From Chamaea fasciata (lineage: Eukaryota; Chordata; Aves; Passeriformes; Sylviidae), in assembly GCA_029207755.1 (NCBI GenBank), contig JARCOQ010000017.1, positions 10,552,945 to 10,616,944 on the forward strand: a DNA stretch of 64,000 nt, given 5' to 3'. A program made the position numbers and the translations under genes. The number at the start of each line of letters is the position of its first letter. Within the stretch, counting starts at the first letter, position 1. Shown piece by piece: positions 42,119-43,566 of the stretch. Below the pieces are notes generated by a model. That model saw only the letters and a program-made list of their open reading frames with translations. It was not told the DNA's origin and made no database searches.

Positions 42119-42123
42119 AAATG
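42119..42123. repeat. Target-site duplication, left copy (aaatg)
   Basis: The five bases immediately before the element's first T are aaatg, and the same five bases follow its last A at 43562. The flanking bases further out differ between the two sides. A short direct duplication at the exact ends of a TG...CA unit is the signature of retroviral integrase. Confidence 0.85.
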
Positions 42124-42805
42124 TGTTGGGGGTTGAGTTTGTTCCTTCTTTCTCTGAGGAATTTTTTCCCCACGAGTTGCCAAGGGGACCGGGTGTTGGA
42201 TACTTGAGAGTGCTTGGCTGAAACAAAGAGATAGACAAAAGGTGGAAAGAGAAGATAACGCAAGTAAAAGACACAGCTTGAGGCAGCTGCGTGCTTTTTT
42301 GCTTCCGGCGTTCGGGAGACGCGTGTCGGCCGCTCCTCGAGGATCTCAGCCGCCGCAAAGCACGCCAAGCAGAAGCTGGGCCGCTATTCTGCCTCGCCTT
42401 CGAGCTTCTTCGGCGCTGCTCCTCTTGCTGCAGCGTGACCCTGCACCCCCTGCGCTGCCGGGACATCCTGCCCCTGCCTGCCGGGACACCCTGCCATCCC
42501 AGCTACCAGCCCGGGACTTCTCCACTGTTCCAGCTTGGTGCTCTGAGGATCCTGCAGGGACACCGAAACCAAACTGCCCTGGGTTTTGTGAAACAAAGCC
42601 CTCAAGGTTCTTGGTACTGTTGTCGTTTGTCATTAATGCTGTAGTTGTTTGGTGGGGGGGGGAGTTTTTTTTTTTTGTGTTTGTTTGCTTTGTATTACAT
42701 ACTAGTAAAGAACTGCTATTCCTATTTCCCAAATCTTTGCCAAAGAGCCTCTGATTGTAATTTTACCTAGCAGATACCTGTCTTCCTAAACCAAGACAGA
42801 TTTTG
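42124..42805 (+). mobile_element. LTR, left arm (U3-R-U5 on plus strand)
   Basis: It begins with the canonical TG and runs through a moderately AT-rich U3 into a CpG-rich block (about 42300-42370), which is probably the promoter or R region. A G9/T12 homopolymer pair follows (42654-42672), and then a U5-like end reading ccaagacagatttt-g. I see no clear TATA box or AATAAA signal. A 170-codon frame (42242-42754) crosses the LTR, but it has no retroviral or other domain and appears identically in the other arm, so I do not call it a gene. The inner end keeps the bases that normally lie between U5 and the primer-binding site (the GATTT after the terminal ACA). So this is not a simple 3' LTR end; it derives from sequence next to the primer-binding site. 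Confidence 0.85.
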
Positions 42806-42881
42806 ACCCGGCTAGCTCAGTCGGTAGAACATGAAACTCTTAATCCCAGAATCGTAAGTTCGAGCCCCACGTTGGGCGCCA
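42806..42881 (+). tRNA. tRNA-Lys(CTT)-like sequence with encoded CCA, retrotranscribed primer copy
   Basis: The 76 bases align end to end with vertebrate tRNA-Lys(CTT). They show the 5' acceptor strand, an intact A box (tagctcagtcggtag), anticodon CTT at 42839-42841, a T-loop ttcgagc, the 3' acceptor strand gttgggc, discriminator G and CCA. Nuclear tRNA genes do not encode CCA, so this copy came from a mature tRNA. Compared with the canonical sequence recalled from memory there are eight differences, at tRNA positions 1, 24, 30, 41, 45, 46, 51 and 52. Seven are G to A. Six of the eight (1, 24, 30, 41, 51, 52) create A-C mismatches in stems, and one alters the first base of the B box. The last 24 bases match fully. 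It is therefore unlikely to yield a working tRNA and is best regarded as a pseudogene-like primer copy. Positions 42880-42881 overlap the mirrored arm. Confidence 0.85.
42864..42881 (-). promoter_or_regulatory. Primer-binding-site sequence (Lys type) for the right LTR
   Basis: Read on the minus strand, the right LTR is followed by TGGCGCC and the rest of an 18-base complement to the tRNA-Lys 3' end, exactly where a provirus would carry its primer-binding site. In this element the site is simply the complement of the 3' end of the central tRNA copy. A few bases (GATTT) separate the U5 ACA from the TGG start. Confidence 0.8.
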
Positions 42882-43561
42882 AAATCTGTCTTGGTTTAGG
42901 AAGACAGGTATCTGCTAGGTAAAATTACAATCAGAGGCTCTTTGGCAAAGATTTGGGAAATAGGAATAGCAGTTCTTTACTAGTATGTAATACAAAGCAA
43001 ACAAACACAAAAAAAAAAAACTCCCCCCCCCACCAAACAACTACAGCATTAATGACAAACGACAACAGTACCAAGAACCTTGAGGGCTTTGTTTCACAAA
43101 ACCCAGGGCAGTTTGGTTTCGGTGTCCCTGCAGGATCCTCAGAGCACCAAGCTGGAACAGTGGAGAAGTCCCGGGCTGGTAGCTGGGATGGCAGGGTGTC
43201 CCGGCAGGCAGGGGCAGGATGTCCCGGCAGCGCAGGGGGTGCAGGGTCACGCTGCAGCAAGAGGAGCAGCGCCGAAGAAGCTCGAAGGCGAGGCAGAATA
43301 GCGGCCCAGCTTCTGCTTGGCGTGCTTTGCGGCGGCTGAGATCCTCGAGGAGCGGCCGACACGCGTCTCCCGAACGCCGGAAGCAAAAAAGCACGCAGCT
43401 GCCTCAAGCTGTGTCTTTTACTTGCGTTATCTTCTCTTTCCACCTTTTGTCTATCTCTTTGTTTCAGCCAAGCACTCTCAAGTATCCAACACCCGGTCCC
43501 CTTGGCAACTCGTGGGGAAAAAATTCCTCAGAGAAAGAAGGAACAAACTCAACCCCCAACA
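42880..43561 (-). mobile_element. LTR, right arm (inverted copy)
   Basis: This is the reverse complement of the left arm at equal length. For any left-arm position x its partner is 85685 minus x, and this holds at both ends, at the G9/T12 homopolymers and at the ends of the mirrored 170-codon frame (42931-43443, minus strand). On the minus strand it reads U3-R-U5 and then directly into the Lys primer-binding complement, as in an ordinary 5' LTR. On the plus strand the tRNA CCA is joined directly to antisense U5, which is the structure of tRNA-primed minus-strand strong-stop DNA extended through U3. Confidence 0.85.
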
Positions 43562-43566
43562 AAATG
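43562..43566. repeat. Target-site duplication, right copy (aaatg)
   Basis: This is the partner of the left copy. It follows the terminal CCAACA directly, and the next base (t) differs from the base preceding the left copy, so the duplication is five bases. Confidence 0.85.

Follow-up and report, generated by a model that had tools for sequence, protein, structure and literature searches.

How does a complete tRNA come to lie between two LTRs that face each other? A provirus has one U3 end and one U5 end, and the primer tRNA is normally not copied past the part at its 3' end. The unit described here departs from both, and its structure, its parent family, its nucleotide changes and its relatives in the same genome bear on how it could have formed.

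Architecture of the unit and its tRNA

The window, by which we mean the whole 64-kb stretch of DNA analysed (C17:10552945-10616944, in a searched genome of 1.19 Gb and 1341 contigs), contains no N bases. A repeat search (seed 14) found a single pair of repeats of at least 60 nt in it, namely the two arms of the unit at 42124-43561 (with its duplications, 42119-43566 or C17:10595063-10596510). These arms (42124-42805 and 42880-43561) are 682 nt long each, are 100% exact reverse complements of one another and enclose a non-palindromic centre of 74 nt. A direct repeat, AAATG, lies outside them (Table 1), and the left and right 300-bp flanks are each single-copy in the genome, both being located at the site of the unit. 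The initial annotation had described identical inverted arms of 682 bp, a tRNA-Lys(CTT) centre and an outer aaatg duplication, all of which is borne out by the sequence. Its equation of the arms with the LTR held in that they are inverted LTRs but failed as to length: the LTR proper (42124-42798) is 675 bp, and the arm further takes in the 5-nt spacer, GATTT, and a dinucleotide complementary to the terminal CA of the tRNA. We place the LTR limit at this point because the listed copies of the family either pass there from the LTR into the spacer, primer site and leader or are solo LTRs. The junction base right after 42805 is ambiguous by 1 nt.

Table 1. Parts of the inverted LTR unit, in window positions
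Feature	Position	Strand	Basis
Left target-site duplication AAATG, 5 bp	42119..42123	.	
Left arm, complete LTR, U3 end TGTTGG outermost, terminus AGACA	42124..42798	+	Limits from 39 other copies, 2 of them solo LTRs
U3 stretch with all 9 LTR G>A changes; 7 in GG, 2 in GA	42136..42367	+	
Spacer GATTT, from LTR to primer-binding site	42799..42803	+	
TG, complementary to 3'-terminal CA of tRNA; perfect arm stops here	42804..42805	+	
Whole tRNA-Lys(CTT) DNA copy including CCA; 8 G>A against host gene	42806..42881	+	ARAGORN, Rfam, host gene comparison
Right-arm spacer, flush against CCA	42882..42886	-	
Right arm, complete inverted LTR, U3 end CCAACA outermost	42887..43561	-	
Right target-site duplication AAATG, 5 bp	43562..43566	.	

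In this arrangement U5 faces U5 across the tRNA, and U3 lies at both outer ends, inside the 5-bp repeats. The outer TGTTGG and CCAACA termini with AAATG on both sides are those of an integrase-type insertion, whereas the presence of U3 at both ends departs from the one U3 end and one U5 end that integrase-mediated insertion leaves. Likewise, the unit has neither direct LTRs around an internal region nor a single LTR, but two inverted LTRs with a tRNA between them. The 198-aa open frame of the LTR yielded no protein homologue at E ≤ 1, and no Pfam match was found in the 4 checked of the 10 window open frames of at least 150 aa. A motif of the bird CR1 element gave a single match, no more than expected by chance, and CR1 tail repeats gave none.

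ARAGORN called the centre (42806-42881) as a tRNA-Lys(CTT) ending in CCA. The Rfam tRNA model gave it 26.3 bits, under the gathering score of 29, and six of its stem pairs have A-C mismatches. Vertebrate nuclear tRNA genes are not known to encode CCA, and the host tRNA-Lys(CTT) gene (L046, also called by ARAGORN) ends without it; in the unit the CCA is joined flush to antisense U5. Relative to L046, the copy shows 8 differences in 73 nt, every one of them G>A (nt 1, 24, 29, 30, 45, 46, 51 and 52). The chance of all 8 falling on G, among G and C, is 0.005, and 5 of the 8 are in a GG or GA context. Nucleotides 1-58 are present beyond the part found in proviruses, in a tRNA joined to U5 at its CCA, as read-through of a primer would leave them. 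Genomic tRNA with CCA is also a feature of tRNA-derived retropseudogenes; in contrast to these, the CCA here is flush with the antisense U5 of a retrovirus with a primer site that fits this tRNA, and there is no A-tail. Similarly, unlike in a LINE-mobilised retropseudogene, an antisense spacer and U5 follow the CCA, and the duplication is outside the LTRs.

The parent retrovirus family and the G>A changes

A search with the tRNA plus the right arm gave 41 matches among the best 40 of 2189 candidates, namely the unit itself twice and 39 other LTR copies; since only those best candidates were scored, the family exceeds 39 copies. The 39 listed copies have 96-98% identity and the same TG...CA ends. 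In 37 of them the LTR is followed by a 5-nt spacer (mostly GATTT), a Lys primer-binding site and a leader, the site being complementary to the tRNA-Lys 3' end over 18 nt or in a variant one base longer. The other two are solo LTRs with 5-bp duplications (L025, ACATG; L036, TCACA). A tRNA body beside the LTR was found in none of the 39, all of which were inspected. Since 37 run on into the primer site and leader and the other 2 stand alone, bases 1-58 of the tRNA do not belong to the inspected proviruses. Thus, the unit shares with family proviruses and solo LTRs an LTR of 96-98% identity, the spacer, the Lys primer site and the 5-bp duplication, whereas a family provirus has direct-repeat LTRs and an internal region without the tRNA body in place of inverted LTRs and a tRNA.

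The primer-binding site occurs in two main forms across L004-L042, CAACGTGGGGC and CAAGTGTGGGGC, and the form CAAGTGTGGGGC mismatches the intact tRNA-Lys(CTT) gene L046. Two of the copies, L019 and L020 (C40), which lie ~1 Mb apart, share 50 nt of identical sequence next to the LTR, owing to either segmental duplication or a duplicate in the assembly. Exact-pattern scans of viral contigs and genome contigs found no relative; their one primer-site match, L001, aligns to the element over 21 bases, has no LTR repeat around it and was put down to chance.

The domains for reverse transcriptase, RNase H and integrase are open in two 1.5-kb pieces of one provirus (L043/L044; C1:11763500-11766500). 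Their open frames, 500 aa for the reverse transcriptase/RNase H (the entire piece) and 314 aa for the integrase, are long enough to suggest a young insertion. Among solved structures, the reverse transcriptase piece best matches p80 chains of reverse transcriptase/RNase H and Pr125Pol chains of retroviruses, which are enzymes of the murine-leukaemia and foamy types. The length of its duplication would make the parent family ERVL-like, a 5-bp duplication being assigned to ERV3/ERVL in the available part of PMC6523648.

The arm differs from the 39 listed LTRs by 9 G>A, 1 C>T, 1 T>A and 1 T>C changes and by two extra T. All nine G>A (positions 13, 34, 52, 110, 125, 127, 129, 140 and 244) are in a GG or GA context (P 0.002) and within the first ~250 bp of U3 (P 0.0008). 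Eight of them, together with the T>C, are absent from all 39 listed copies, and the ninth occurs in one. Private G>A and C>T changes number 8:0 in the arm as against 16:19 in the 39 listed copies pooled (P 0.006), where no copy has more than 2 private G>A. The nearest U3, L075 (from the best 40 of 1774 candidates), shares the C>T and the T>A of the arm and has none of the nine G>A. The cluster (window 42136-42367) adjoins the polypurine tract, in the part of U3 that the plus strand should be the first to cover.

Strand-biased G>A in GG and GA contexts is the pattern of APOBEC-type editing, and the LTR changes look like a deaminase signature. In the LTR they would be the trace of a deaminated minus strand, and in the tRNA that of its deaminated DNA complement; the latter is plus-strand DNA and would then have been single-stranded. 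Strong APOBEC-type editing of zebra finch LTR elements is cited in the accessible text of PMC6523648, and the portion of PMC3880073 at hand reports APOBEC1 in the zebra finch and a lizard, with G>A editing in lizard L1 and not in lizard LTR elements.

Every change, including all nine G>A, is carried by both window arms, so either one edited strand or source served for both or the changes were made alike later; we favour one edited strand. The arms show 0 differences over 682 positions, which at assumed rates of 1.5-3e-9 per site and year bounds the age of the unit at ~0.7-1.5 million years, a clock that gene conversion between the arms would break. Over this bound ~0.16 changes are expected in the tRNA and 8 are seen; hence they were likely made at or before insertion.

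Related tRNA junctions in the same genome

The initial annotation had proposed a genome search for the joint of tRNA-CCA with antisense U5 as a check on recurrence. We searched with the 126-nt centre (best 40 of 671 candidates), with the tRNA plus 14 nt (best 40 of 246) and with the host tRNA gene (8 of 8), and the junction did recur: a tRNA body joined via CCA to antisense U5 of the parent family was found in at least two places besides the window, L047 and L049, both on C4.

In L047, an LTR in sense orientation is followed by complementary tRNA sequence (nt 76 to ~23), an 11-nt filler that is also present in the U3 of L047, and a U3 in inverted orientation. It ends in TGTTGG on one side and CCAGCA on the other, its duplication is AGTGC/AATGC (4 of 5 matching), and its arms are 81% similar by BLAST and 86% over 353 ungapped sites. 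L049 is flanked by CATGT on both sides, a 5-bp duplication. Its left arm has ~8 nt of LTR (about TGTTG + ACA) before the spacer and is read from this sequence as a probable, nearly deleted LTR; beyond the left arm come the complement of tRNA nt 76 to ~21 and a full inverted LTR that starts at CAAAATC, the point at which the window unit also resumes. Base 58 is A in all three units.

The changes in these relatives are more mixed. Against the 12 nearest copies, the changes confined to the right arm of L047 comprise 11 G>A and a single C>T along with 7 T>C, 4 A>G and others, those confined to the left arm 2 G>A, 2 C>T and others, and the changes common to both arms include no private edits. Compared with younger copies, G>A to C>T stands at 8:2 in the right arm, 1:3 in the left and 20:4 in both arms. 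Of the 60 tRNA positions compared with the host gene in each, 10 differ in L047 (4 G>A) and 11 in L049 (5 G>A, 3 C>T and 3 others), counts in which some differences fall past the endpoint of each tRNA copy. Judged by its identical arms, the window unit looks the youngest, and L047 and L049 appear as older, differently joined relatives.

Two further loci join tRNA-Lys sequence at CCA to U5-like ends. At L048 (match C4:56905913-56906008; locus ~1500-2150) a U5-like end and CCA are followed by the complement of nearly the whole tRNA-Lys, on the other side of which lies an old retroviral reverse-transcriptase frame in plus-strand sense. It may be a provirus of another LTR family that has undergone tRNA read-through and carries a deletion, its U5 being a candidate only. 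At L077 (C2:116437600-116439200; 751-1601) a frameshifted copy of Wnt without introns, which matches Pfam wnt positions 87-305 as four pieces spread over ~770 bp, adjoins complementary tRNA-Lys sequence (nt 10-76) with CCA and a U5-like end. This is possibly an LTR-mediated retrocopy, formed when read-through of the tRNA was followed by a switch to a host mRNA, with the LTR side again a candidate only. The two are similar to each other over 103 bases, mostly tRNA. Their joints to the reverse-transcriptase frame and to the intronless Wnt copy, respectively, rule out that L048 or L077 is a plain tRNA retropseudogene. Other tRNA matches were rejected as units: L078 and L080 are tRNA-like pieces whose match ends short of CCA, and L079 is a tRNA-Lys(TTT) gene.

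Possible origin of the unit and its significance

The structure was initially interpreted as an integrated by-product of reverse transcription in which the whole primer tRNA had become DNA. This is supported by a primer site that matches the tRNA 3' end, by the tRNA body in 0 of the 39 listed copies, by the CCA flush against antisense U5 and by a 5-bp duplication like that of the solo LTRs. Specifically, we propose, with a probability of roughly 0.64, that the reverse transcriptase copied through the whole tRNA primer and jumped onto an LTR plus strand, and that integrase inserted the product by its two U3 ends.

According to the available text of PMC13191261, plus-strand strong-stop DNA normally stops after 18 tRNA bases at m1A58; on an unmodified tRNA the plus strand runs to the tRNA 5' end, in a product that is not among the active ones. 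Reverse transcriptase was also found to copy attached tRNA-Lys3 in vitro after plus-strand synthesis, as stated in the accessible part of PMC10986323. Accordingly worded for the unit, the first step would be plus-strand synthesis (U3-R-U5) past the usual 18-base stop to the tRNA 5' end, a route that would account for the full tRNA copy and that might have been opened by, for example, a primer without the m1A58 block. Second, such a read-through product would be incapable of the normal second strand transfer, going by the same portion of PMC13191261. Third, its 3' end would transfer to an LTR plus strand at the ...GATTTTG terminus and copy back to the U3 end, the template being either its own strand by fold-back or a second strand from the same edited template. 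Fourth, the 8 G>A in the tRNA would stem from deamination of its single-stranded complement and the 9 in the LTR from deamination of minus-strand U3. Fifth, a 5-bp duplication accompanied the insertion, presumably by integrase, of the resulting linear molecule with its two U3 ends. As to how the return copy was primed, perfect self-priming from the acceptor stem was rejected: modelled on a tRNA sequence other than that of L046, it would yield a product 2 nt longer than observed, and the right length would come only from a slipped register plus a mismatch.

Several observations count against this copy-and-jump route. The nine LTR G>A are confined to U3, a clustering that its simple form does not predict; just 5 of the 8 tRNA edits are in GG or GA; and the clean editing of the window is not seen in L047 and L049. 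For L047 in particular, we favour two molecules or later change over one strand as the better fit to its differing arms.

It is possible, though we think it improbable, that host end joining linked the normal U5 end (...TTTTG) of one LTR DNA to the tRNA-copied U5 end of another before integration by the U3 ends. The window junction is nearly blunt, with its 1-nt ambiguity, the resumption at CAAAATC in both the window unit and L049 resembles a standard trimmed end, and the arms of L047 do differ in their changes. Separate LTRs should, however, differ in edits, whereas both window arms carry the 9 G>A, 8 of which are in none of the 39 listed copies, and the 11-nt filler of L047, found also in its U3, looks like template switching by a polymerase. 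End joining could be rescued by later arm-to-arm gene conversion or by an edited source copy outside the scored ones.

A rearrangement after insertion, either of opposite LTRs around a tRNA gene or pseudogene or through inverse duplication of a solo LTR by gene conversion, is very unlikely. Inverted LTR neighbours do exist, one of them near the L023 LTR, but here the target duplication encloses both LTRs, CCA and spacer meet flush at the inner joint, the U5-primer-site register of the family is exactly kept, and the arms are identical despite 8 changes in the tRNA. We give equally little credence to an assembly or library artefact such as read fold-back, which would not yield two different single-copy flanks with a duplication on both sides, and to which the complete non-palindromic tRNA centre and two diverged relatives elsewhere are likewise opposed. 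Finally, three units in one genome might suggest a family of palindromic elements that propagate themselves with the tRNA as a component. This is most improbable: tRNA endpoints, junctions and divergence all differ among the three, and none of the tRNA-like places found (8 of 8 candidates, plus 1 from a further search) closely repeats the window unit.

Some known products resemble the unit in part. Junctions of 2-LTR circles may retain tRNA primer bases, and these circles are like the unit in having tRNA-derived bases between LTR ends; they are, however, episomal U5-to-U3 junctions, whereas the unit has U5 facing U5 and was integrated by two U3 ends. The HIV-1 tRNA-Lys3 product P1, as described in the available part of PMC13191261, likewise has an attached unmodified tRNA copied to its 5' end, but P1 is an intermediate of reverse transcription, whereas the window copy is genomic and joined to an inverted LTR. 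Among the open-licence papers listed, no title or abstract opening describes an integrated LTR-tRNA-inverted-LTR unit. Within that scope, read-through of an unmodified primer tRNA is known as biochemistry, and its integrated, inverted LTR-tRNA-LTR form would be new.

On balance, we lean towards a distinct and recurring class of insertion, in which the primer tRNA is read through and the failed product becomes a two-U3-ended LTR-tRNA-inverted-LTR DNA that is inserted by integrase and kept in the germ line. Its members would be fossils of read-through and of integration by two U3 ends, and the tRNA copy itself would bear the footprints of a deaminase. The units also suggest how an LTR could become joined to a whole tRNA, to a pol fragment (L048) or to a host mRNA copy (L077), the LTR sides of the latter two being candidates only. 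If this is correct, genomes would record the frequency with which the tRNA block fails, the points in the tRNA at which the polymerase halts and those at which it jumps, as well as the acceptance of two U3 ends by integrase in vivo and the strand exposed to a deaminase. The consequences of primer-tRNA copying in the germ line would thereby be made visible.
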